NCBI GenBank assembly: GCA_003142535.1
Contig: PLMQ01000026.1
Span: forward strand, 1-42,962
Direction of reading: 5' to 3'
Origin: Syntrophaceae bacterium
GTDB taxonomy: Bacteria; Desulfobacterota; Syntrophia; Syntrophales; Smithellaceae
DNA: 42,962 bases
Part shown: positions 1 to 13,198 of the stretch, piece by piece
Numbering within the stretch: the stretch's first letter is position 1
Layout of the letters: each line of letters opens with the position of its first letter
Notes under the pieces: generated by a model
Told to the model about the DNA's origin: nothing
Databases searched by the model: none
What the model saw: the letters and a program-made list of their open reading frames with translations, nothing else
Translations under genes and position numbers: made by a program

Positions 1-1
1 A

Positions 2-43
2 GCTCGTTGGAAATTGCTGGGGGGCATGAGCTACGATAAATGA
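2..43 (+). CDS. Possible 3' end of an upstream gene (partial)
   Basis: The window opens in an open frame of 13 codons ending in TGA at 41-43. The stop overlaps an ATG (ATGA arrangement) that begins the next small ORF, as in translationally coupled genes. Too little is visible to identify a product. It could equally be non-coding sequence at the left end of an integron cassette. Confidence 0.2.
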   Translation, partial: ARWKLLGGMSYDK

Positions 44-141
44 GCCGACCTAAAAAACCTATTGGAGAAGGTTTGGTGAGCCCTTTAATCTTGAATTACG
101 GGAAGGACAAGACCTATTGGGACCATAAGGTTACGTTATGA
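40..141 (+). CDS. Small ORF (33 aa), unknown
   Basis: This ATG-started frame of 33 codons is rich in Lys, Pro and Gly. It overlaps the preceding frame by ATGA, and its own stop overlaps the start of the SNase gene by another ATGA (138-141). The double overlap suggests a translated coupling peptide or the remnant of a gene. No family is recognised and no signal peptide or membrane segment is seen. It may be chance. Confidence 0.25.
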   Translation: MSRPKKPIGEGLVSPLILNYGKDKTYWDHKVTL

Positions 142-1013
142 AAAAATTTATTCAATCGACAATCAGGTTTTTATTCATAACAGCAGTGCTGATGTTTGGA
201 GGCATTCTTCCATCATTTTCTGCTGAATTGCAAATGTTCTCCAATGCGAGATTGATAAATGATCCGGCAAATGATGGAGATAGCTTTCTTGTGGAAGCTA
301 ATGGGAAATCTTTCCATGTCAGGCTTTATTTTGTTGACTGTCCTGAAACCTTAATTGCCTTTATAGGTGATGCGCAGAGGGTCCGGGAACAAACACGTTA
401 TTTTGGATTGTCTGATGCAAAACGTACTATTCATTTCGGTAACGAAGCAAAAACTTTTGTTGATCATGCCCTTGTTAAACCTTTTACTGTTCATACAGCC
501 TTTGCAAGTGCGTTAGGAAGGTCATCCAAAGGCCGGGTATATGGATTCATCACTACTGCTGACGGAAATGATTTGGCGAGCCTGCTCGTTAAAAATGGTT
601 TTGCCCGTACATACGGCATGGGCAGGGAAACACCCGATGGAGTGTCACGTGACGAAATGGTTAAAAGACTGCGGGATTTTGAGATTTCGGCCATGTTGAA
701 ACGTGTTGGCATCTGGTCGGAGAGTGATCCGGATCGGATTGCGGAACTCCGTTCTAAACAACGCAGTGAAGATCGTGAATTACAGGAAGCACTAGATCAG
801 GTAACAAAAGCTAAATCTCCACAGGGTTTAGTAAGCCTTAACACTGCCTCTGAAAAAGAACTTCAGACTATAAAAGGTATCGGTCCTGTTCTTGCTAAAA
901 GAATTATAGCCGGTCGCCCTTATAGAACCGTTGATGATTTGCTCAAAGTAAAAGGAATTAGCCCAAAAAAAATTGAAACTATTCGCCCTTATTTTTTGAT
1001 AAGTACGGAATAA
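138..1013 (+). CDS. Secreted thermonuclease (SNase-like) with C-terminal ComEA-type helix-hairpin-helix
   Basis: Exported nuclease of the staphylococcal nuclease fold, expected to cut DNA or RNA outside the cytoplasm with calcium. Residues 1-29 form a signal peptide (KK start, hydrophobic core, SFSA cleavage site). The SNase core covers about 45-195. The residues matching the classical active site are present: R62 before VDCPE, E103 in GNEAKTF, and R133 in GRVYGF. Residues 232-287 are a helix-hairpin-helix pair of the ComEA type (LNTASEKEL, IKGIGPVLAKRI, VKGISPKKI), a non-specific DNA-binding module. The SNase plus HhH pairing suggests a DNA-degrading or DNA-binding surface protein. The gene is followed 13 bases later by an attC-like site, so it is probably an integron cassette gene. 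Start at 138 is supported by the signal peptide. Confidence 0.88.
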   Translation: MKKFIQSTIRFLFITAVLMFGGILPSFSAELQMFSNARLINDPANDGDSFLVEANGKSFHVRLYFVDCPETLIAFIGDAQRVREQTRYFGLSDAKRTIHFGNEAKTFVDHALVKPFTVHTAFASALGRSSKGRVYGFITTADGNDLASLLVKNGFARTYGMGRETPDGVSRDEMVKRLRDFEISAMLKRVGIWSESDPDRIAELRSKQRSEDRELQEALDQVTKAKSPQGLVSLNTASEKELQTIKGIGPVLAKRIIAGRPYRTVDDLLKVKGISPKKIETIRPYFLISTE

Positions 1014-1026
1014 AGTAATAACATTG

Positions 1027-1093
1027 GCATGACCCAGCGCTCAAGTGGATGCACTACGCTACACTCCGCGAGCCGCTTAGCTCGCCGTTAGGC
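1027..1093 (+). other. attC-like integron recombination site (first)
   Basis: About 67 bases downstream of the SNase gene. The right end is the R' box GTTAGGC (1087-1093). The left end GCATGAC (1027-1033) matches its complement at 5 of 7 positions. Inside, GCTCAAGTGG (1039-1048) pairs with CCGCTTAGC (1073-1081), leaving one unpaired C. That is the extrahelical-base pattern typical of attC L''/L' arms. Folding, not sequence, defines attC, so this is a structural call. The left AAC triplet is GAC here, so activity may be reduced. Confidence 0.6.
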
Positions 1094-1158
1094 ATATATT
1101 CGTGTGAAGAGCTAAAAGACATTTTAATGACAAAGCGATGTATTAAATCGGAGGGAAA

Positions 1159-1617
1159 ATGGACCTGAATAAGATCAAGTTAGCCCATAAAGAATTGAAG
1201 GAGTTGCAAAAGCCAATATATAATGTCAATGTAATTCATAAGGAAAGTTTAAGTGTATTAGAAAAAATTGCTGTCAAGGTTACTGATTATGTCGGTTCAG
1301 TAGGGTTTTTCTTAGTTATATTTTGTTGGACTTTATTATGGCTAGGCTGGAACACAATTGCGCCAAATGAATTAAGCTTTGATCCATTTCCTGCTTTTGT
1401 TTTATGGCTTTTTATTTCGAACATGATTCAAATATTTTTGATGCCGCTGATAATGATTGGTCAAAATCTTCAAGGTCGTCATGCTGAGAAAAGAGCAGAA
1501 TCAGATTTTGAGGTGAATATTAGAGCAGAAAAAGAGATTGAAGTAATTCTTATGCATTTAGAACAGCAGAATGAACTTATATTAAAAATACTTGATAATA
1601 TAAAAAACCGATACTAA
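1159..1617 (+). CDS. DUF1003 family membrane protein
   Basis: Inner-membrane protein of 152 residues, the usual size for DUF1003. The N-terminal 45 residues are charged and cytoplasmic. Two membrane helices follow at about 46-66 and 78-101, joined by a short loop containing NELSFDPFP. A conserved tail (GQNLQGRHAEKRAE) is followed by a helical, probably coiled-coil, C-terminus (120-150). The molecular function of the family is unknown. A good ribosome site (GGAGGG) sits just before the ATG. The gene lies between two attC-like sites in the same direction, which makes a cassette of about 670 bases (roughly 1088-1759). It is A+T-richer than the chromosomal genes to the right, as cassette genes often are. 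Confidence 0.85.
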   Translation: MDLNKIKLAHKELKELQKPIYNVNVIHKESLSVLEKIAVKVTDYVGSVGFFLVIFCWTLLWLGWNTIAPNELSFDPFPAFVLWLFISNMIQIFLMPLIMIGQNLQGRHAEKRAESDFEVNIRAEKEIEVILMHLEQQNELILKILDNIKNRY

Positions 1618-1649
1618 AAAGTAGGATAGGGTAATTGATTTAGAATAAT

Positions 1650-1765
1650 GCTTAACAACCGGTTAAAGCTGATGGTTCCTTCGATTCACGCTTTTTACGT
1701 GTTCCAGCTTGTTTAAGAGCCTGGGCCGGAGACAAAAAGCGTGCCGGTTATTGCAAACGTTAGGC
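1650..1765 (+). other. attC-like integron recombination site (second, longer)
   Basis: The left box GCTTAAC (1650-1656) fits RYYYAAC exactly and the right box GTTAGGC (1759-1765) fits GTTRRRY exactly. Inside, AACCGG (1657-1662) pairs with CCGGTT (1744-1749), and CACGCTTTTT (1687-1696) pairs with AAAAAGCGTG. The two stems are separated by an asymmetric internal loop, so the site is long (116 bases) and less canonical than the first. It closes the DUF1003 cassette. A family C repeat begins 8 bases later. Confidence 0.55.
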
Positions 1766-1773
1766 CTTTTATT

Positions 1774-1903
1774 GTGAAACTCCAATACCGTGTGCGCAGC
1801 ACGAAGGGATTGGTAAGTTGAACAATCCCGCGAAGCGGAGGGTATAATACCCCGCAGCTTGCTGCGATAAAGTTTCCAAAGCTTGCTTTGGGGTTCCCGT
1901 GAT
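1774..1903 (+). repeat. Family C hairpin repeat, copy 1
   Basis: Begins GTGAAACTCC, then a stem CCAATACC/GGGATTGG, then TAAGTTGAACAATCCCGC and a small CCCGCGAAGCGG hairpin, a GGTATAATACCCC block and further short hairpins. The same order of blocks recurs at 11250-11476, 11865-11954, 13475-13610, 27236-27436 and 28787-28948. It fills the gap between the second attC-like site and the convergent gene at 1905. Confidence 0.65.
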
Positions 1904-1904
1904 T

Positions 1905-2252
1905 TTACCGATCAACTTTATTTACAATCAATCCTTTTTCCTGAAATATTTTTAGCACAGTTGCTGAATTTTCCACAGTAAAACCGATGCGCCACCATTT
2001 GTGGCGGAGGGAAGCAAAGAAAATCTTATCGCGTTTGTATCTTTGGAAATCCTTGGGAAACCATGTTTTAAAATCGCCGGTACCGTGAAAGCGCAAGCGA
2101 CCATTCCAGATGGATGGCTTTTTGACCACTATTTTTTCGATCTCTGAAAATTGCACCAGCCTGTCACCCTCAAAAAAACCGTAGCGCCGGAAAAGAATAC
2201 TTTTCCCCGTTATCTTTACTAATGAATCGGAGTAAACAGTTTCTTCGGTCAT
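1905..2252 (-). CDS. Hypothetical protein, possible PH-like fold
   Basis: Protein of 115 residues counted from the second methionine (MTEETVY), which has GGGAA six bases upstream. An ATG four codons earlier has no ribosome site. It is soluble, with no signal peptide or membrane helix. The pattern of beta strands with alternating hydrophobics (DSLVKITGKSILFRRYG, VQFSEIEKIVVKK) resembles bacterial PH-like domains that open with a short strand-rich lead, but this is a resemblance only. It runs convergent to the cassette region and lies downstream of panE on the same strand, with a gap of 57 bases. Function unknown. Confidence 0.6.
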   Translation of the reverse strand: MTEETVYSDSLVKITGKSILFRRYGFFEGDRLVQFSEIEKIVVKKPSIWNGRLRFHGTGDFKTWFPKDFQRYKRDKIFFASLRHKWWRIGFTVENSATVLKIFQEKGLIVNKVDR

Positions 2253-2309: not shown

Positions 2310-3248
2310 TCAGGTTACGTTAGCTGAATTATTTACAGCTTCAATTTTTCTGATCGCATCAAATAGTTTCTCATTAACTGGCGTGGGAACAGCAAGTTTT
2401 CGGCCTAGCTCGATCACCTTCCCGGCAAACATTTCCACTTCAGTTTTCCTGCCTGCTTCTATATCCTGAAGCATGGAAGTTTTCCCCTGTGGGTTGATAT
2501 TCAGGAGAACTTTATTAAATGTTTCGATATCCTCTTCGGAAAGATTAACCCCTATCCTGCCGGAAAGCATAATAACCTCTCGCATGGCCGATTCCATTAA
2601 GTTTCTGGCTTCGGGCAATGTTTGAAATACTGAGAACGGGGCGCGAAGTACAGCCGATGCCTGATTGATTCCGACATTGACCATAAACTTCCACCAGATG
2701 CTGCGAATCATATCAGGAGGTGTTTCATAAATAATCCCTGCCTTGTCGAAAAACTCCTGAACACGCTTAACCCGTTCTGAAATAATTGTGTTTTGTGCCT
2801 CTCCAAAAAATATTTTCCCCTGACGGGCATAATTAACACGGTTTTTTTCTCGTAGCGCATCAATACCAACAGATATGGCATATAGAACCTTTCCCATTCC
2901 ATAGACAGCTCCAATTTTCTCTTCGCTCTCTATGCCGTTCATAACGGATATAATAATAGTTCTATCACCAACCCTGTTTTTCATATCCCGAATGGCATCT
3001 TGCAGATGCTGATTTTTTACAGCAACAATGACGAGGTCGGAAGGCGCTGATAAATCTTCCGGCCGGAGAACAGGGATGTCGTAGTGTTTGCCATTAACAA
3101 TCAGACCATACTGTCGCAGCCGTTCATAACGAGCGTCGGCGGCAACAAAGGAGACGCAACTGTTGTCCATATTGTGAAAGATACCGGCATAAGCCGCACC
3201 CAATGCCCCTGCTCCGATTACAGCTATTTTTTCGATAGATTCTTTCAT
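2310..3248 (-). CDS. panE: 2-dehydropantoate 2-reductase (ketopantoate reductase family)
   Basis: NADPH-dependent reduction of ketopantoate to pantoate, in the pantothenate and coenzyme A pathway. Some members of this family act on other 2-oxo acids. The N-terminal Rossmann motif GAGALG sits near residue 12, followed by VAVKNQHL. The C-terminal helical domain has the family pattern WWKFMVNVGINQASAV, which carries the catalytic lysine, and SMLQDIEAGRKTEVE, which carries the conserved glutamate. Start chosen at 3248 (MKESIEK), giving 312 aa, the usual length. A longer frame to 3311 would add 21 residues encoded by the mobile repeat at 3253-3400, so those residues are unlikely to be real. The gene lies downstream of hisD on the same strand, but the repeat separates them. 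Confidence 0.85.
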   Translation of the reverse strand: MKESIEKIAVIGAGALGAAYAGIFHNMDNSCVSFVAADARYERLRQYGLIVNGKHYDIPVLRPEDLSAPSDLVIVAVKNQHLQDAIRDMKNRVGDRTIIISVMNGIESEEKIGAVYGMGKVLYAISVGIDALREKNRVNYARQGKIFFGEAQNTIISERVKRVQEFFDKAGIIYETPPDMIRSIWWKFMVNVGINQASAVLRAPFSVFQTLPEARNLMESAMREVIMLSGRIGVNLSEEDIETFNKVLLNINPQGKTSMLQDIEAGRKTEVEMFAGKVIELGRKLAVPTPVNEKLFDAIRKIEAVNNSANVT

Positions 3249-3252
3249 GCTC

Positions 3253-3400
3253 TTATACCATTTCTTAATCAAAGCGCTATCTTTGTTGGCTGCGTCGTCT
3301 GGCTTCCTCAATGTATGTACAACGCGTGACCTTTAGGTTATACGCCTCGTCGCCTCCTCCTTGCCGCCTCGATATCATCTCTGATTTAGAAATGGTATTA
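3253..3400. repeat. MITE-like element, family A, copy 1
   Basis: 148-base element with imperfect 18-base inverted ends: TTATACCATTTCTTAATC at 3253-3270 and GATTTAGAAATGGTATTA at 3383-3400. Its interior is nearly identical to the element at 10987-11115. This copy carries about 19 extra bases near 3331-3349 that contain the palindrome ACCTTTAGGT, which is also found inside family C repeats. No ORF. It separates hisD from panE and supplies panE's upstream region. Confidence 0.8.
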
Positions 3401-3428: not shown

Positions 3429-4715
3429 CTACTTAAGCCGTACCAAAACTGAATTGGCATGGGCATCCAGTCCCTCCAACTGCGCAAAGTGAGCTGTCTC
3501 TTTACTTAACTTACCCAGAGCTTTCTGCGAAAAAGATAAAACGCTCATGCGTTTAATAAAATCATAAACTCCCAGCGGAGAAGAAAACCGCGCCGTTCCT
3601 TCTGTAGGCAAAATGTGATTTGTTCCCGCCAGATAATCACCCAGCGCCTCCGGTGTAAACGAACCCAGAAAAACGGAGCCGGCATTGCGCACCTTTGTCA
3701 AAACATTAGCCGGATTTTCGACCATCAACTCCAGATGCTCCGGCGCGAAGAGATTGGCCAGCTCCACGGCTTCCTCAATACTGGCCGTAACAATAATTGC
3801 ACCGTATTTGGCCAGAGATTTTTCAATAATTTTCGTACGCGATAAAGCTTTCAGTTGTTTATCCACTTCCCGCGAAACTTCGCGCGCCAGATTTTCATCG
3901 GGAGTAAAAAGAACTGCCGCCGCCATTTCATCATGCTCCGCCTGCGCCAGCATATCGGCGGCCACATAGGCAACCTTTGCCGTTTTATCGGCAATAACAA
4001 CAACTTCACTGGGCCCGGCAATCATATCAATATCCACTTGACCAAAAACCAGTTTTTTGGCCGCGGCAACATAGGCATTTCCGGGACCCACAATTTTATC
4101 CACTCGGGGAATAGTCTTTGTTCCGTAAGCCAGCGCGGCAATTGCCTGCGCCCCGCCTACTTTAAAAATGCGGTTCACAGAGGCCTCTTCGGCCGCTGCG
4201 GCAATTAACGGATTGAGCTTGCCGTCTTTAGCCGGGCTGACCAGAATTATTTCCTCCACACCGGCAATACGTGCCGGAATGGCCGCCATCAGCAGAGTTG
4301 AGGGATAAAAAGCCTTACCGCCCGGAGCGTAAATGCCGACGCGCTGCAAAGGTAAAATCCGTTGGCCTAATTCCACGCCTTCTTCATCATTAACCAACCA
4401 ACCCTTGATAATCTGGTTTTTGTGATATTTTTCAATGCGCTGGGCCGCAAGTTTAATAACCGCCAAATCCTCAGAGCGCACTTGTGCCAGAGCAGATTTT
4501 CTTTCTGCGGCAGTTACCTCGACTGTATCTGCATTTAATTCGTATTTGTCGAATTTTTTCGTATACTCAAATAGGGCTTCATCGCCTCGGACGGCAACAT
4601 CACGCACAATATCCACCGCAGCATTGAGCAATTCAGGACTAAATGCACTGCCCCGCTGGCGCAGGTTGCGGAAAAATTCTCCAAACTCAGCAGCATCAGC
4701 TTTGATTATTTTCAC
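3429..4715 (-). CDS. hisD: Histidinol dehydrogenase
   Basis: Zinc enzyme that oxidises L-histidinol to histidine in two NAD-dependent steps, the last reactions of histidine synthesis. At 428 aa it has the usual length. Signature sequences are present: GPGNAYVAAAK, the zinc-site segment DMLAQAEHDE, FAPEHLEL with the Glu-His pair of the active site, GDYLAGTNHILPT, and the terminal LDAHANSV. The start is GTG at 4715, supported by AGAGGTGAT six bases upstream. No other his genes are in the window. The gene follows murA on the same strand, with a 168-base mobile element in the gap. Confidence 0.97.
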   Translation of the reverse strand: MKIIKADAAEFGEFFRNLRQRGSAFSPELLNAAVDIVRDVAVRGDEALFEYTKKFDKYELNADTVEVTAAERKSALAQVRSEDLAVIKLAAQRIEKYHKNQIIKGWLVNDEEGVELGQRILPLQRVGIYAPGGKAFYPSTLLMAAIPARIAGVEEIILVSPAKDGKLNPLIAAAAEEASVNRIFKVGGAQAIAALAYGTKTIPRVDKIVGPGNAYVAAAKKLVFGQVDIDMIAGPSEVVVIADKTAKVAYVAADMLAQAEHDEMAAAVLFTPDENLAREVSREVDKQLKALSRTKIIEKSLAKYGAIIVTASIEEAVELANLFAPEHLELMVENPANVLTKVRNAGSVFLGSFTPEALGDYLAGTNHILPTEGTARFSSPLGVYDFIKRMSVLSFSQKALGKLSKETAHFAQLEGLDAHANSVLVRLK

Positions 4716-4755
4716 AATTAATCACCTCTAGAGAAATCATGTTTTTTACGAATAA

Positions 4756-4923
4756 GACGACTTGGTAAAAAGCTCCAGATGTAAGGCGCGCGAATCTTTA
4801 GGAGCGAGACGTACTTGGTTTGTACGTCGCAGTGAACTAATGATGAAGCGCATCCGGCATGCGCCGGATATACTACGCAGATGCATAGCCCGGCGTATGC
4901 TGGGGACTTTTTACCAAGTTGTC
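4756..4923. repeat. MITE-like element, family B, with inner hairpins
   Basis: 168 bases bounded by inverted ends GACGACTTGGTAAAAAG (4756-4772) and CTTTTTACCAAGTTGTC (4907-4923). Two perfect 7-bp inner hairpins are visible: GACGTAC/GTACGTC near 4807-4827 and ATCCGGC/GCCGGAT near 4852-4869. The right edge lies one base from the murA stop codon. No coding frame. Only this copy is seen in the window, so calling it mobile is inference from its shape. Confidence 0.7.
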
Positions 4924-4924
4924 A

Positions 4925-6175
4925 TTATTGTGTCATCCTTCTAATATCCGCACCCAGTGCGGAAAATTTCTTTTCAATCTCCTGATAACCGCGGTCAATG
5001 TGATAGACGCGGGAAATTTCCGTCGTCCCCTTGGCAACCAGCGCCGCCAAAAGCAAGGATGCCGAAGCCCGCAGATCGGTAGCCATTGTTTGCGCGCCGC
5101 GTAACGCGGGCACTCCGCGCACAATCGCGCTACCGCCCTGAATATTAATATCCGCACCCATGCGCATCAGTTCGCTCACATGCATAAAACGGTTTTCAAA
5201 AACAGTTTCGCTGATTACACTTAAACCAGTACCCACCGACATATAAGCCATCATCTGCGCCTGCAGGTCAGTCGGGAAACCCGGATAGGGCAGCGTTTTA
5301 ATGTCAACACTGTGGATTTTTTTCGAGCCTACTGCTTTCAGACCATTTTTTATCGGCTTAATCTTCATGCCGATCTCGCGCAATTTATTGATTAATGCCT
5401 CTAAGTGATGATAGTTACAGCCATAGATATTAATTTCACCTCCGGTCATACCCGCGCCGATCATGAAAGTTCCCGCTTCTATGCGGTCGGGAATAATTGT
5501 TGCCTCGACCGGTTTCAATGATGTCACACCTTCGATTGTTATCGCATCCGTACCCGCGCCGCTGATCTTCGCGCCCATGCCCTTTAAAACATCCGCGAGG
5601 TTGACAATTTCCGGCTCGCAGGCGGCATTATTCATTACTGTTGTGCCTTCCGCCAGAACCGCTGCCATCATTATATTTTCAGTACCGGTCACTGTGGGAA
5701 TATCAAAATAAATATCCGCACCTTTTAATTTTTTCGCTTTTGCCTCAATATAGCCGTTATTCAATTCCACCTGCGCACCTAGTTCCTGCAGGGCTTTGAT
5801 ATGCAGATTCACCGGCCGGGCGCCGATAGCGCAACCGCCCGGCAACGATACCCGTGCCACACCGTGGCGGGCGATAAGCGGCCCCAGAACCAGAATGGAG
5901 GCCCTCATCGTTTTTACTAAATCATAGGGCGCTTCGTGATTGGTAATTTTTTCCGCATTGATCCGGATCGTTTCTCCGCCTTCTATCTCGACGCCCAGAT
6001 TGCACAACAGCTTTTTGGTTGTCTTAATATCCATAAGATCAGGTATATTATGAAACGTGCTTGTACCTTCCACCAGTAGCGCCGAAGCTAAAACAGGCAG
6101 CGCGGCGTTTTTTGCCCCGCTAATATGCACATCCCCGTGCAACGGCTTGCCGCCTTTAATAACAAACTTATCCAC
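4925..6175 (-). CDS. murA: UDP-N-acetylglucosamine 1-carboxyvinyltransferase
   Basis: First committed step of peptidoglycan synthesis in the cytoplasm: transfer of enolpyruvate from PEP to UDP-GlcNAc. At 416 aa it has the normal length. The substrate lysine K22 (SGAKNAALP) and the catalytic cysteine C115 ([12 protein letters not shown]) fall at the same numbers as in the E. coli enzyme. Cysteine at 115 predicts a fosfomycin-sensitive form. The start is GTG at 6175, whose first base is the last base of the prmC stop (TAGTG), with AAGGAG upstream. This indicates tight coupling with prmC. Confidence 0.98.
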
Positions 6176-7029
6176 TAATTAATTCTCCTTGCTTTGATTA
6201 CACGCGGTCTTCCGGCATAATCGTTTCTGACACTAATATCTTTATATCGTCCTGAAGCTTCGGCAATCTTTTTTATATCTGCCGCCTGTGTTGAACCTAT
6301 CTCCAGCAGAAGCCAGCCTGCACTCTTTAAATGGTCGTGCGCCTGATTAATAATTTTTTCATAAAATTCCGTTCCCTGAACTCCGGCCAAAAGCGTCTCG
6401 GGCGGCTCATAATCTTTAACACCGCGCGGCAAATTCCGGTATTCCTCTTCCGCTATATAAGGCGGATTGCTGACTATTATATCAAAAAAATCATCAACCG
6501 GCTCTAATAAATTACCCTGACGAAAGTCTATTAGAGAATCCAGCCCCAAATTGCGAGCATTTTTTTTCGCAACGGCAAGGGCGGCAGACGAAATATCCGT
6601 GGCGGTTATTTTTGCGCCGGTGATTTCTTTAGCAAGGGCTAGGGCAATTGCCCCGCTTCCCGTGCCGATATCCAGAATTTTAATTTCAGCAGAGTTGATT
6701 GTTTTTATAATATTGAGGGTTTCTTCCACCAACACTTCGGTATCCGGCCGCGGAATAAGCACAGAATTATTGACTTCCAGCACGAAAGACCAAAATTCTT
6801 TACGGCCGATAATATAGGCCACAGGTTCCCACTTCAACCTTCTATCCACCAATTTTTGAAATACGGCCAGTTCCTTATCATTGATGCGCCGGGCAGGATT
6901 CTTGTAAAATTCTAGCCTCTCGCAGCCCAGACAAAAGGAAAGTAATACTTCCGCATCCAGCCGCGGCGAAGGAATCCCGGCCGCTTCTAAAGCTTTTGTT
7001 GACTCATTGAGAATGTCGCGAACGATCAT
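6175..7029 (-). CDS. prmC: Peptide chain release factor N5-glutamine methyltransferase
   Basis: Methylates the glutamine of the GGQ motif in release factors RF1 and RF2, using S-adenosylmethionine. It has the N-terminal helical domain, the SAM-binding motif [16 protein letters not shown], and the NPPY motif ([15 protein letters not shown]) that holds the target glutamine. Start chosen at 7029 (MIVRDIL), giving 284 aa, with AGGA nine bases upstream. A frame extending to 7086 adds 19 unconvincing residues partly from repeat sequence. The expected partner prfA is the next conserved gene upstream, but about 2.8 kb of accessory genes now lie between them. Confidence 0.95.
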
Positions 7030-7082
7030 GGCGTTGTTTCCTGTAGGATGAGTGATCTCATAATAATTTAGACACCATTTTG

Positions 7083-7112
7083 TCATTCCACGGCTTGACC
7101 GGGGAATCCAGA
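7083..7112. repeat. Short GTCATTCC repeat (family D), copy 1
   Basis: TGTCATTCC, a short arm, then GGGAATCCAG. The same flanks occur at 19221-19245, 32820-32850, 40906-40935 and 42871 onward. The gap between prmC and the next gene (7030-7346, 317 bases) holds this repeat and the promoter described below; nothing else is seen. Confidence 0.5.
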
Positions 7113-7228
7113 AAGCATTTTACCAGTGACAATTTCAATCTCCAAATGTCTTTTTAATTATACGGCTGTTAATAAATCACGAAATTACTAAAAAATGAAA
7201 TGATATCTAGATGCCTGAAAATAAATTG

Positions 7229-7257
7229 TTGCAAAAAAAATGTCAAGCGTTTATAAA
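7229..7257 (+). promoter_or_regulatory. Candidate sigma-70 promoter for the TIR-like gene
   Basis: TTGCAA (7229-7234), a 17-base spacer, then TATAAA (7252-7257). This is a good match in sequence and spacing in an A+T-rich stretch about 90 bases before the start codon of the gene at 7347. Such matches also arise by chance in A+T-rich DNA. Confidence 0.45.
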
Positions 7258-7346
7258 TCTAAATCATTAATATTTTAACAGAATTTATCTATAGGAATAG
7301 ACGGAAACTTTAGAATAGCTTTTTATGAACATAAGAGGAGGCAACT

Positions 7347-8288
7347 TTGGACATCACGATTAGAAAAAATGAACATTGCATTGTAGGGCTGCCGCGGTGT
7401 GACTTCGTGTTCTCCTCCACAAGGAGTTGTTTTATAGCTTATGGTTTCAAAACTAGTCCCTTGGAGATGACAATAATAAGAAACCTTCTTACCCAAAAGG
7501 GCGTCCAGTGTGAAGAAGCTGGCGGTAACTTGGCCCCTGGTCAGAATGCTTTTTGCCAGAAGATCTGTTCAAAGATAATAACTTCCCAATTCTGCATCGT
7601 TCTTTTAAATCATGATGACGAAAATGGCAAGTTAGTTCCCAATGCTAACGTCAACATGGAATATGGTCTCATGTTGGGGTTCAACAAATATTTGGTCCCG
7701 TTTCAGCAAGAGGCTGAAACTCTTCCTTTCAATGTAGCCGGATTAGATACCATAAAATACGATAAGAATAATTTCGAATCAAAAGCATCTACAGCAATTG
7801 ATGTTGCCATTAAGAAAACGAGTCAAAATCAAGCCGACTTGACTAATCCAGATCAAGTAATCCAGCTATTTATTCTTTCTAGGAAAGCCTTGTACTCCGC
7901 TGTCGACAGCGTTGGCGAGAAGAACATATTTCGCATGGGTTCGCCATTTGGATTTAACTTGCTGAACGATTTTTCCGGAATGATATCCATCTTCTTCGGT
8001 AATTTTACAGCGCTTCGACCAGAAATAGTTATCTGGCGATTACAGATGTTAAATCAGCTACTAACTGAAAGAATCTCGTCGCTTAAGGAGCGAATAGAAC
8101 TAGGCTTAGTTACGCCAAAACAGGTCGAACTGGCGGAGAATCACTTCGGCAAAATGAAAATATGGATTCTTGTTACAAGCGATGAGGATAAGGCCATCAT
8201 ACTCAGGGAGACTCAGAGCGTTACGTTTTTTGACCGGATGCAGGTTCTTTCTACCGTGGATATGAAAAGAGAGTTAGGCTTGCTTTAG
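7347..8288 (+). CDS. Protein with putative TIR/nucleoside deoxyribosyltransferase-like N-terminal domain
   Basis: 313 aa, not assigned with certainty. Residues about 25-140 read as an alternating beta-alpha fold: strand CFIAYGF, a helix, a second strand with KGVQCEEAGGN, a helix with CSKIITS, strand FCIVLLNHD. Then comes the segment PNANVNMEYGLMLG, with E105, and a strand KYLVPF. A conserved N-V-x-x-E-x-G segment of this kind marks TIR-like and deoxyribosyltransferase-like nucleotide-processing domains, where the glutamate is catalytic. Residues 165-313 are helical and unassigned. Seven cysteines lie in the first 85 residues. The start is TTG at 7347, strongly supported by AGAGGAGG five bases upstream. 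It is divergent from prmC, sits inside a translation operon, and is followed by a GNAT gene. A nucleotide-cleaving effector or sensor is a guess. Confidence 0.6.
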   Translation: MDITIRKNEHCIVGLPRCDFVFSSTRSCFIAYGFKTSPLEMTIIRNLLTQKGVQCEEAGGNLAPGQNAFCQKICSKIITSQFCIVLLNHDDENGKLVPNANVNMEYGLMLGFNKYLVPFQQEAETLPFNVAGLDTIKYDKNNFESKASTAIDVAIKKTSQNQADLTNPDQVIQLFILSRKALYSAVDSVGEKNIFRMGSPFGFNLLNDFSGMISIFFGNFTALRPEIVIWRLQMLNQLLTERISSLKERIELGLVTPKQVELAENHFGKMKIWILVTSDEDKAIILRETQSVTFFDRMQVLSTVDMKRELGLL

Positions 8289-8364
8289 TGAACAACCGCG
8301 TCTTGTAATGGATCGTCAGAGGTTTCCGCTGGAACTGAGCATTAACGGGCATAAGCAATAGACA

Positions 8365-8871
8365 ATGTTGAGTCCTTTGATACGCACTTGCACACAAAAA
8401 GATATCGAAGTTTTAGTTGAGACTATCCGAAGATCATTTCAGGATGTAGCTTTGCGCTTTGACTTGACCCGGCAGAACGCTCCTCGCCATCCATCCAACT
8501 GCACAAAGGACTGGATTCAAAAGGATATGGAACGCGGTGTTACCTATTACGTTGCGGAAAATGAAAACATTGTTGCAGGGTGTGTTGCTCTTGAGCAAGC
8601 AAATTCTGAGGTATGTTATCTGGAACGCCTCGCAGTTCTTCCCTACCAGCGGCATCGTGGTTTTGGGAAAGCATTGGTAACTCATGCGTTGTCCGAGGCT
8701 AAACTTCTTGGAGCTAAGCACGTAAACATTGGAATAATTGCAGAGCATTCTGAACTGAAGAACTGGTATAGAGAAATTGGATTTGTAGATGGAGAGAGCA
8801 AGGAATTTCCCCACTTGCCTTTTCGTGTTGCTTTCATGTCTTACGAAGTAAATAAAAACTGCCGACAATAG
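8365..8871 (+). CDS. GNAT family N-acetyltransferase
   Basis: 168 aa, a single GNAT domain that transfers an acetyl group from acetyl-CoA to an unknown amine. The central strand YLERLAVLPYQRHRGFGKAL contains the R-x-x-G-x-G/A coenzyme A pyrophosphate loop. It is followed by a helix, strand AKHVNIGIIAE and the typical NWYREIGFVD motif. It starts 76 bases after the TIR-like gene on the same strand and may share its promoter. Part of the block inserted between prfA and prmC. The substrate cannot be told. Confidence 0.85.
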   Translation: MLSPLIRTCTQKDIEVLVETIRRSFQDVALRFDLTRQNAPRHPSNCTKDWIQKDMERGVTYYVAENENIVAGCVALEQANSEVCYLERLAVLPYQRHRGFGKALVTHALSEAKLLGAKHVNIGIIAEHSELKNWYREIGFVDGESKEFPHLPFRVAFMSYEVNKNCRQ

Positions 8872-8953
8872 GGTGAATACCAGATCAAATGAAAATAGAG
8901 ACATTGATTGTTCTTTTGCAGAAAACAACCAATGCCACTATTTACTATTCTAA

Positions 8954-9760
8954 TTATCGCGAAATCATATTTTCACCGCGGCGAATCGTCCAAAAATCAT
9001 CGGAAAGGTTTCTATCGGCGACATATTTGTATGGCATTGTAAAATATCCTTTTATTCCCCATTTTTCTCCCCAGGAATTCCGCACAATAAATCTTTCTTC
9101 AGCATCGTCGTAACCTACAGCCAGAACAGCATGACCACCCAGTGACTTTTCATCATGTGCCGGCATGTTCACGACGCCGGTTTTTGCGACTGCCTGCGAT
9201 TCAAAGCTTTCATATACTGTAAAACCAAAGACAAACGGAAAGCCTTCCGCCAGGCATGCACGCATTTCATCTCGCGTGATAATGCGGCGATAGGAAGTAA
9301 TTTTATGTTTCGCCGCATCCTTGTAACAAGATGGAGTTGGTTTAACCCGGAATTTGGAGACAAGATAAGGCCATTTCTTCTCCGAGCATACGCCCTTTTT
9401 CGCGAGTGTCTTGATACCATCACGGATCATGGCTCCGGAGTCGGATTGGATGGAGTGTTCAATGGCTCTTTCGTTATAGTAAATAAATAGCCTGCTGAAA
9501 TCCTCAAAGGCAATTTTATCCTTCCGCTCCAGAAATTCCAGCGATCCGGCCAGAGCGTTGGCGGTGCAACTGCCAAGTTGTCCCTGATTCTCTACTTGCG
9601 GACAGAGAGGGCGCAAATCTACCTTGCTGGGTAGCTTTGCCGGTACACGGAGTACAGCGCTAAGCAAATAATCACGCTGATCGGGCACATCAGGCATCCA
9701 CCCATAGCGAGTGTTTTTAAACTTACCTTGTTTAGAAGCGATAACTTTCTTTACTGCCAT
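8954..9760 (-). CDS. Papain-like (C1A) cysteine peptidase
   Basis: 268 aa cysteine protease with the complete papain set: oxyanion glutamine Q59, nucleophile C65 (NQGQLGSCTANA), H210 (GGHAVLAVGYDD) and N228 (VRNSWGEKWG). There is no signal peptide and no long inhibitory propeptide. The protein starts with a basic stretch and WMPDVPDQRDY, a lead common in bacterial C1A enzymes that are mature as made, so it is probably cytoplasmic or exported by an unseen route. It shares its direction with prfA but lies 124 bases downstream, and converges with the GNAT gene. Physiological substrate unknown. Confidence 0.9.
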   Translation of the reverse strand: MAVKKVIASKQGKFKNTRYGWMPDVPDQRDYLLSAVLRVPAKLPSKVDLRPLCPQVENQGQLGSCTANALAGSLEFLERKDKIAFEDFSRLFIYYNERAIEHSIQSDSGAMIRDGIKTLAKKGVCSEKKWPYLVSKFRVKPTPSCYKDAAKHKITSYRRIITRDEMRACLAEGFPFVFGFTVYESFESQAVAKTGVVNMPAHDEKSLGGHAVLAVGYDDAEERFIVRNSWGEKWGIKGYFTMPYKYVADRNLSDDFWTIRRGENMISR

Positions 9761-9884
9761 ATAAACCTCCTTGTTTGAAAATTTGTCTTCGCGGTGGGGT
9801 TTACGCTCACCGGAGAAATGAAGCGGAATTACTTCCCCACTTTATTCATCAAGCAGTACATAAAGACCCATTTAATTTATTGGA

Positions 9885-10952
9885 CTATTTCAGCGATTCT
9901 GCCTGATAATGCGTTGCCAGCGCATCAATCATCGCGCCGATATTGCCGTTGAGAAAATTGTCCAGATCATAACGGGTCATGCCGATGCGATGATCGGTAA
10001 TGCGTCCCTGAGGGAAATTATAAGTGCGGATGCGCTCGCTGCGATCGCCGGAACCTACCTGGCTTTTTCGGGCTTCGGAAATTTCCGCATTTTGTTTTTG
10101 CACCATGGCATCGAGCAGGCGCGCTCTTAATACCTTCATAGCCTTGATTTTATTTTTTAGCTGTGATTTTTCATCCTGACAGGTGACAACAAGGCCTGAC
10201 GGCAAATGGGTGATACGTACCGCTGAATCTGTTGTATTGACGCTCTGACCGCCATGTCCGGTAGAGCGATAAACATCGATGCGCAAATCATTCGGATCGA
10301 TCGTGAGTTCCACATCTTCCACTTCCGGCATAATGGCCACCGTCACCGCCGAAGTGTGAATACGCCCCTGCGCTTCCGTAACCGGTACGCGCTGCACACG
10401 ATGAGTGCCGCTTTCATACTTCATGCGGCTGTAAGCGCCTTTGCCTTCGATCTGGGCGATAATTTCCTTAAACCCGCCGACACCACCGGTCGAAGAACTG
10501 CTGACAATTTCTACGCGCCAGCCCTGAGCTTCCGCATAGCGCGCATACATACGAAACAAATCGCTCACAAAAAGTCCGGCTTCATCTCCGCCCGTTCCCG
10601 CCCGAATTTCCAGAAAAACATTTTTATCATCATTCGGGTCTTTCGGCAGCAGCAGCACTTTTAACTTTTCTTCCAAACCGGCCTCTTCCTGCTGCAATTG
10701 GGGCATCTCTTCTCTGACCATTGACTTTAATTCTTCATCGTTCCCTTTTAGAAAGCCCTGGTATTCTGCAATACGTGATATTATTTTTTCATATTCACGG
10801 ATGGTTTCCACCAATTCCGTTAAATCGGAATGCTCTTTAGCATATTTCTGATAAAGACCTTGTTTGGAAACAATTTGCGGGTCGCTGAGCTGTCCTTCCA
10901 GCTCCCGATAACGGATTTCAATGTCACGAAGTTTATCTAATAAAATATTCAT
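9885..10952 (-). CDS. prfA: Peptide chain release factor 1
   Basis: RF1 ends translation at UAA and UAG codons. At 355 aa it has the standard length. It has an N-terminal helical domain, the stop-codon recognition tripeptide of RF1 type (PVT, residues 190-192, in [14 protein letters not shown]), and the GGQ motif (234-236, in GHGGQSVN) that triggers peptide release in the ribosome. The glutamine is the target of PrmC, encoded downstream. RF2 would carry SPF at the tripeptide, so RF1 is clear. Between this gene and rpmE lie about 540 bases of repeats. Confidence 0.98.
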
Positions 10953-10986
10953 TTTAATTCTTTAAGCAAAGGTTGAGATGATTAAG

Positions 10987-11115
10987 TTATTCCAATTCTA
11001 AATCAAAGCGCTATCTTTGTTGCCGTCGTTGTCGGCTTCCTCAACGTATGTACAATACGCCTCGTCGCCTCCGCCTAGCCGCCTCGATATCATCATTGAT
11101 TTAGAAATGGTATTA
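10987..11115. repeat. MITE-like element, family A, copy 2
   Basis: 129 bases with imperfect 18-base inverted ends, TTATTCCAATTCTAAATC (10987-11004) and GATTTAGAAATGGTATTA (11098-11115). The interior matches the copy at 3253-3400 apart from point differences and the 19-base block present only there. It lies in the rpmE-prfA gap. No ORF. Confidence 0.8.
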
Positions 11116-11249
11116 GTTTAGAAAAGGCGCACTTGCAGATAACCATTCCTGCTGAAATGGGCGTATCTACAAATAACAAGATAGATGAAATATTTTCATC
11201 ATGCGGAGAGAATCCAATCACGAGCGCTAAAGTAAACTGCAGAATATTT

Positions 11250-11476
11250 ACCCCGCTTCGCGGGATAATTCCGCCATCAAGTTTCCGTGCACTTCGTTTC
11301 CGAAGCTTGGGTCTCATTACAACTGACCAATTCCGACTTGTGACCTCGTGCCACCTTTAGGTGGTCAGGTTATGCACTGCGTTTTCGGAATTGAAGTTTC
11401 ACAACCACCGCTTCCGCGGGATTGTTCAACTAGTGAATTCCGCTACGTTGCACTTGCGGAATTGAAGTTTCACAAC
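11250..11476 (-). repeat. Family C hairpin repeat, copy 2 (double unit)
   Basis: Read on the minus strand, two units start with GTTGTGAAACTTCAATTCCG (near 11476 and 11407). Each is followed by a loop and the pairing sequence CGGAATT, then AATCCCGC hairpins. One loop contains CCACCTTTAGGTGG, a perfect 14-base palindrome. Together with the family A element it fills the 542-base space between prfA and rpmE, where no gene is seen. Confidence 0.65.
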
Positions 11477-11494
11477 AAAATATTATGCAGATGC

Positions 11495-11731
11495 CTATTT
11501 CGTTGTTTTCTTTTTAGTTTGCGGCTTTGTTTCTTTGACTTCGTACCTCTTTTTAAATCTTTCCACGCGGCCGGCAGTATCCATAATCTTTTGCTTGCCG
11601 GTCATAAAGGGATGACAATTGGAACAAATTTCGACTTTAATGTCTTTCTTGGTTGACTTTGTTTCAATGACATTACCACAAACACAGGTGATTTTAGTTT
11701 CTTTATAATCGGGATGAATGCCTTCTTTCAT
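11495..11731 (-). CDS. rpmE: 50S ribosomal protein L31
   Basis: 78 aa protein of the large ribosomal subunit. It has the zinc-binding (C+) pattern with C16, C18, C36 and C39 (CVCGN and CSNCHPF), then the conserved [19 protein letters not shown], and a lysine-rich tail. The zinc form is usually expressed in zinc-replete cells. The start at 11731 has GGAGGAG upstream. The gene sits between rho and prfA as in many related bacteria, here separated from both by repeats. Confidence 0.97.
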
Positions 11732-11864
11732 TTTTTTTACTTCTCCTCCTTCATCTTTATCTTCAACAAGTAATGATCTTTTTAAAGCAATTACGCTGCA
11801 TTATAATATCTGCGGTAAAAATTCAAGCAATTTCGCAGAGATTTACAGCCAAACTTTTTTCGCT

Positions 11865-11954
11865 ACCACGGGAATTACATACCCTCTGCTTACGCAGGAT
11901 AGTTCGACTTACCGATTCTGCTACGCTGCGCTTGCAAAATCGGAGTCTCACTAT
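11865..11954 (-). repeat. Family C hairpin repeat, copy 3, touching the rho stop
   Basis: On the minus strand it begins TAGTGAGACTCC, where TAG is the rho stop codon. The stem CCGATTTTGC/GCAGAATCGG follows, then TAAGTCGAACTATCC and a small hairpin. Compared with other copies both sides of the stem have changed yet still pair. It fills part of the 219-base rho-rpmE gap. Confidence 0.6.
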
Positions 11955-13198
11955 GAGTTCATGGAATCCAGGAACTCCTGATTGGTTTCCGTTTTTCTGA
12001 TTTTGCCGATGATGAATTCCATCGCATCCACCGGATTCATTTCTTGCAGCAGACGGCGTAACACCCAGATACGGTTCAAATTCGCTTTGGGAATCAGCAA
12101 TTCTTCTTTTCTGGTTCCGGAACGAATCAGGTCAAACGCCGGGAATACTCTGCGGTCGGCGATACGACGATCCAAATGCAACTCCATGTTGCCGGTTCCT
12201 TTGAATTCTTCGAAAATAACTTCGTCCATCCGGCTGCCGGTATCAATCAGTGCCGTGGAAATGATGGTCAGGCTGCCGCCGTTTTCGATGTTACGGGCAG
12301 CACCGAAGAACCTTTTCGGCTTATGCAGCGCGTTGGAATCCACACCACCGGAGAGAACTTTTCCGCTGGGCGGAACAACCGTGTTATAGGCACGAGCCAG
12401 ACGGGTAATACTGTCCAGCAGAATAACAACATCTTTTTTGTGTTCAACCAGCCGCTTGGCTTTTTCAATAACCATTTCGGCTACCTGCACGTGGCGGGAA
12501 GCCGGTTCGTCAAAGGTTGAAGAAATTACTTCACCGGCAACACTGCGTTGCATGTCGGTAACTTCTTCCGGCCGTTCATCAATCAACAGCACCATCAGAA
12601 CCACTTCTTTGTGATTGGCCGTGATACTGTGAGCTATATCCTGCAGCAGAACCGTTTTACCGGCGCGGGGCGGAGATACTATCAATCCGCGCTGACCCTT
12701 CCCAATAGGTGCAAACAAATCCAGCGTTCTGGTAGAATAATTTTCCGGATCAAATTCCAGATTTAATTTTTCTTGCGGATAGAGAGGTGTCAGGTTATCA
12801 AAGAGAATTTTGTCGCGGGCGGACTCGGGACTTTCGAAATTGACCGTGTCCACTTTCAGGAGGGCAAAATATTTTTCCCCTTCCTTAGGCGGCCGCACTT
12901 CGCCGGAAATGGTATCGCCGGTGCGTAAATTGAACCTTCTTATCTGCGAGGGAGAAATATAAATATCATCGGGGCTGGGCAGATAGTTGTAATCCACTGC
13001 TCTTAAAAATCCGAATCCGTCCGGAAGAATTTCCAGGACACCCGAGCCGGAGATCATCCCGTTTTGTTCAGCCTGTGTCTGAAGTATGGAAAATATTAAA
13101 TCCTGACGGCGCATACCGCTGGCACCGGGTACGTTCAGATCTTTGGCTAAATTGTTAAGTTCACTAATCGGCAATCGCTTAATGTCTTCAATGTGCAT
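11951..13198 (-). CDS. rho: Transcription termination factor Rho
   Basis: Hexameric RNA-dependent ATPase and helicase that ends transcription. At 415 aa it is standard. It has the N-terminal Rho domain ([17 protein letters not shown]), the cold-shock-like RNA-binding domain ([14 protein letters not shown]), Walker [13 protein letters not shown], Walker [17 protein letters not shown], and the conserved GTRKEELL region. AAGGAAG precedes the ATG. The C-terminus EFLDSMNS is where Rho normally ends, and the TAG stop is the first codon of a family C repeat. It is divergent from the DEAD-box helicase across about 500 bases. Confidence 0.98.

Follow-up and report, generated by a model that had tools for sequence, protein, structure and literature searches.

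The first 1,766 bases of the window (the whole stretch of DNA analyzed here, 42,962 bases in length) very probably belong to a sedentary chromosomal integron and form its distal end, far from the integrase. This reading is based on a match to an attC covariance model, a recurrent attC-bounded SNase cassette, an integron integrase gene (intI) with attC sites elsewhere in the genome, and synteny with relatives. Because the window is the entire contig C70 of a draft genome (2.93 Mb in 70 contigs), nothing to its left can be read directly. The preliminary description of this DNA had proposed the probable edge of a chromosomal integron array, and that proposal is supported by the attC match, the genomic intI and the differing gene contexts in relatives. 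To it we add a third, fused cassette end at positions 1 to ~118 (Table 1).

Table 1. Features of the array end and the adjoining core genes, in window coordinates.
Feature	Position	Strand	Basis
Cassette 0 end: NTF2-like gene 3' end and 3' non-coding part, own attC missing	1..118 (approx.)	+	DNA match to G133 C486
Cassette 1 (SNase-HhH), original 5' TTRRRY end missing	123..1093	+	DNA homology to L166/L167 from 123
SNase-like nuclease with C-terminal helix-hairpin-helix, 291 aa	138..1013	+	Pfam SNase PF00565, HHH_3 PF12836
attC site 1, intact, canonical	1027..1093	+ (bottom strand = folded)	Covariance model R1, 32.4 bits, E=5e-5
Cassette 2 (DUF1003), G^TT crossover of site 1 to site 2	1088..1759	+	Complementary ends
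DUF1003 protein, 152 aa	1159..1617	+	Pfam PF06210, E=9e-25
Site 2, probably a decayed or chimeric attC	1650..1765	+	Both end boxes; L'-R' half 1743-1765 canonical; 5' half 1650-1683 attC-like
Dispersed repeat copy, ~140 bp	1767..1905	+	~40 genome copies; begins right after array
PH119, conserved core gene, 119 aa	1905..2264	-	Array border; adjoins rimP in array-free relatives
Core flank hisD-murA-prmC-prfA-rho	3429..13198	-	Synteny with relatives

attC sites at the left end of the window

Since a search of Rfam gave no attC match, we built an attC covariance model de novo from integrons of other organisms. An integrase alignment was used to fetch 80 integrase-bearing loci from named genomes, and 43 attC sites from the arrays at those loci, none of them from this genome, formed the training set. 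The resulting model (R1; length 64) has both the R and the L stems modelled, and its L stem covaries strongly, with 92% of cells paired and 7 of the 10 pairs altered on both sides. Half-sites were scored position-specifically against 81,876 background positions. An earlier attC scan that required six-base R''/R' pairing was dropped; it missed three sites beside intI because R' is part of the next cassette.

Site 1 is the top model match in the window, aligns over the full length of the model (1-64 of 64) and stands well above the runner-up (32.4 vs 13.2 bits, the latter with E=0.7), with nothing else higher. It was scored on the minus strand, as plus-strand cassettes would lead one to expect. 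Its elements run GCATGAC (R'', 1027-1033), CCAGC, GCTcAAGTGG (L'') ... CCGCTTAGC (L'), TCGCC and GTTAGGC (R', 1087-1093), so that R''/R' and L''/L' are paired and a single extrahelical C lies in L'', the canonical arm. The site had previously been called attC-like for its terminal GTTAGGC and its inner arms pairing around one unpaired C, and both the anatomy and our own covariance model bear this out. It deviates only in R'', which has GAC instead of AAC; related SNase cassettes read GCATAAC at this place. A placement of R'' at TAATAAC was rejected, as the unpaired base then falls on the wrong side, whereas with GCATGAC at 1027 the site is canonical. Site 1 is the only intact attC in the window.

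The other site, site 2, is probably a decayed or chimeric attC, because its halves are each attC-like yet do not pair with one another. The exact RYYYAAC- and GTTRRRY-type ends ascribed to it earlier are indeed present (GCTTAAC, 1650-1656; GTTAGGC, 1759-1765), but the site is not an intact attC: the full-length model score is 4.5 bits and the L arms are out of register. The 3' half (GCCGGTTATTGCAAACGTTAGGC) scores 21.9 bits, and none of the 81,876 background positions is as good. The 5' half is weak at 3.9 bits, with 12 background positions out of the same 81,876 scoring as well, and across 34 nt it shares 85% identity with the corresponding half of a genuine attC in the relative G010, a site that itself scores 30.8 bits. 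Relative to the 3' side, the 5' side is ~9 nt short and carries 24 nt extra. Alternatively, site 2 could still function as an unusually long and asymmetric attC, a variant compatible with the distal-end reading that we consider unlikely; it would agree with the intact end boxes, with a 3' half equal to typical training sites and with the complementary ends of cassette 2, but not with inner arms displaced by that missing and extra sequence.

Both sites might also be chance hairpins between ordinary chromosomal genes, an explanation to which we give almost no credence. The poor score of site 2 would fit it, as would the minimum-energy DNA folding of sites 1 and 2, which was no better than that of shuffles, although this method is uninformative here. 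The score of site 1, its L''/L' pairing with an extrahelical base, the rest of the 43 kb at or below 13.2 bits and the recurrence of SNase as a cassette all contradict it, and for site 1 the model match has already refuted it.

Cassettes and their genes

Judged by sequence comparison, the SNase-HhH gene is a recurring cassette of the order's genomes. Its product has a putative signal peptide (assessed by eye). SNase-HhH is 93% identical in G010, of another genus, 91% identical in G126, of another family, and ~70% identical in four more genomes of the order. DNA homology with G010 and G126 begins at window position 123, directly past an attC R' end box, and the junctions read ...GTTAGCTCC and ...GTTATGCCC, each followed by TTAAGGTTACGTTATG. 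The ~70% homologues start near GTTATGC-like boxes, and some finish in GCATAAC or CCATAAC, close to the window R'' GCATGAC. The gene thus occurs in different arrays with its 5' ends at attC crossovers in loci L166 and L167; a 3' attC of the cassette was not found in these two loci.

At the extreme left, window positions 3-130 share 84% DNA identity with a G133 contig on which the end of a 158-aa cassette gene, which we take by eye to be NTF2-like, is followed by an attC (22.3 bits). Because the attC that follows this counterpart is absent from the window, cassettes 0 and 1 appear to be fused through loss of the attC between them, or the junction could be an assembly error. The upstream NTF2-like gene was sought elsewhere in the genome and not found. 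Positions 1-56 are 98% identical to the final 55 bases of contig C6 (C6:9050-9104), and the simplest reading is a k-mer overlap where a cassette is repeated. An interpretation of positions 1-122 as an insertion sequence was dropped, since they match the end of the G133 cassette gene. Fusion of gene cassettes through attC loss is already known (PMC4670013); an attC was likewise lost there between two cassettes, but in a class 1 integron, whereas cassette 0 and SNase-HhH belong to a chromosomal array.

In the DUF1003 unit, the 5' GTTAGGC(AT) and the R'' (AT)GCTTAAC are complementary at 6 of 7 positions, or 7 of 7 counting G-T, and as a control, 35 neighbouring site pairs in arrays average 6.14 of 7 vs 4.69 when shuffled (sd 0.15). 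This complementarity supports its status as a cassette. Among 149 relatives no DUF1003 homologue exceeded 38% identity, and the same gene was accordingly not seen in other arrays. Neither gene, then, keeps a common chromosomal context in relatives, SNase-HhH lying in different attC arrays and DUF1003 having no such homologue. The gene-site-gene-site order, spacing and lower GC noted in the preliminary description were confirmed, with 39% GC for the array, 41% for SNase and 32% for DUF1003 vs 45-47% for the core.

One locus and its integrase

To the right of the array, core genes on the minus strand follow in the order PH119, panE, hisD, murA, prmC, prfA and rho. In the array-free relatives G020 and G012, murA-hisD-PH119-rimP-nusA-infB is unbroken at this place. 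In the present genome, PH119 borders the array on C70, and rimP-nusA-infB lies on a second contig, C53, past intI and a PIF1-like helicase. The G007 genome has attC arrays of the same orientation at both borders, one beside PH119 (C44, five attC) and the other beside PIF1-rimP (C15, seven). A single G011 contig carries prmC-murA-hisD-PH119, genes resembling cassettes together with attC (26 bits), an internally deleted intI remnant, PIF1, rimP, nusA and infB. Since the core flanks of C53 and C70 adjoin in the array-free relatives and the locus is whole on one contig in G011, the simplest reading is that a single sedentary chromosomal integron has one end on each of the two contigs. No read or contig links C53 and C70 across the gap between them, and we infer the physical continuity of C53, array and C70 from these sequence comparisons.

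Several further features were seen along this flank. The gene panE (2310-3311) lies between PH119 and hisD here and was probably inserted beside the array border, because it is missing between these genes in G007, G020 and G012. The ~140-bp repeat is intergenic and contains hairpins, and its copy at 1767 begins one base past the end of site 2. Genes for a TIR-domain (PCTIR-like) protein and an acetyltransferase (7347-8871) separate prmC from prfA, which are close together in relatives such as G007.

The integron integrase on C53 (2492-3796; locus L010) matches TIGR02249 at 398.9 bits (cut-off 265), has no stops and is the one full copy in the genome. Upstream of it are three attC sites scoring 22-32 bits, and the cassette ORFs, on the strand opposite intI, begin ~216 bp upstream of it and point away. 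At the attI junction, G^TTGGCC and GGCCAAC form a matching pair. C53 thus has an intI of the integron family and, beside attI and intI, an array oriented away from them. It had been suggested earlier that the integrase would lie to the left of the window; its presence in the genome is now established, and its placement to the left follows from synteny rather than from direct view.

About 20 more attC candidates were detected in the genome, including on C66, C50, C25, C67, C65, C43 and C36, and several sit at contig ends, as expected if arrays break assemblies. C66 (4.4 kb; L137, 1-4368) consists only of cassettes with attC sites all in one direction, among them what we take by eye to be two toxin-antitoxin pairs, BrnT/BrnA-like and Phd/RelE-like. 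On the long contig C50, which has no integrase, about five attC sites cluster internally (L141:2921-5873), and one of their cassettes presumably encodes a VapC-like PIN-domain protein (by eye).

Such clusters raise the alternative that the array in the window is a CALIN (an attC cluster lacking an integrase) unconnected with the integron on C53, which we regard as quite improbable. The attC clusters away from intI on C50, C25 and C67, with that on C50 inside its contig, would be in keeping with it, and so would G007 and G022, in which arrays occur at or near the locus and a search for a full-length intI found none. Against this, C53 with its intI and C70 each carry one side of what was ancestrally a single junction, their cassettes pointing in the same direction, and G011 retains an array together with an intI remnant at the locus.

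If the left end of the window is the far end of the C53 integron, circular cassettes would have been inserted close to intI on C53 when IntI recombined their attC with attI, and newer entries would have pushed older cassettes outward, leaving the oldest end beside PH119 and hisD. Site 1 still retains the folded-strand anatomy that IntI requires. Decay at this edge would have removed the attC that once separated cassette 0 from SNase-HhH, changed a base in R'' of site 1 and left site 2 as a mismatched pair of half-sites. The activity of IntI, the past movement of cassettes and the order of these decay events are what we infer from this arrangement.

The C53 integrase itself is long, with 434 aa, ~100 residues more than IntI4. 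The latter is its best solved relative (2a3v) and aligns to residues 110-424 only. The extra N-terminal part gave weak, repeated matches to Phage_int_SAM_4 in 3 of 4 tested (E 2e-5 to 6e-4, below the Pfam cut-off), and structure prediction placed an extra four-helix bundle ahead of the usual one (mean pLDDT 79.9) in a model whose pTM of 0.48 leaves the relative placement of domains uncertain. On these matches and the predicted fold, the integrase carries a putative duplicated N-terminal SAM-like domain. Similarly long integrases are found in many relatives as well as in records from Nitrospirota and Lentisphaerae, and a literature search found no description of a long integrase with a duplicated domain, which is no proof of novelty. 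The PIF1-like helicase beside intI on C53 (L010:4981-6564) has a WYL domain, and PIF1-WYL helicases adjoin intI or an array border in several genera (L215, L220, L226, L241, L234 and L235). A doubtful but conceivable extension is that the duplicated-SAM integrase and a genetically linked PIF1-WYL mark a distinct, ancient sub-type of integron platform, in which the extra domain and the helicase may aid folding or replication of the single-stranded attC hairpins.

Relation to known integrons

Vibrio superintegrons take insertions proximal to attI and hold long arrays whose genes are mostly unknown. The integron described here would resemble them in both respects, but the attC repeat is uniform there, whereas several attC kinds occur here and the array is broken in the assembly. 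The kind of system is already known, since the same pattern has been described for Xanthomonas, in which sedentary chromosomal integrons occupy a fixed ilvD-intI locus with repeated intI loss and extra attC clusters elsewhere (PMC12444791). Both have a locus conserved across species, an intI that has repeatedly been lost or inactivated and attC clusters at other loci, but the borders here are PH119/hisD and PIF1-rimP-nusA-infB, the family is uncultured and the integrase is longer.

Under IntegronFinder version 2, a CALIN requires at least two attC (PMC9024848). C50 would be called one, and the window end taken alone would be as well if two sites were scored; the window array differs in being tied by synteny to an integrase-bearing contig. 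Draft assemblies inflate CALIN numbers (PMC9024848), which fits the scattered attC contigs of this genome.

Taken as the far end of a sedentary integron, the left end of the window would document that several genera of an uncultured family carry an old chromosomal integron at the same fixed locus, with relatives displaying states of that locus from array-free through a full array to an integrase remnant. It would also provide concrete cases of cassettes common to different genera and families and of decay at the far end of an array, and the long form of the integrase is worth attention.
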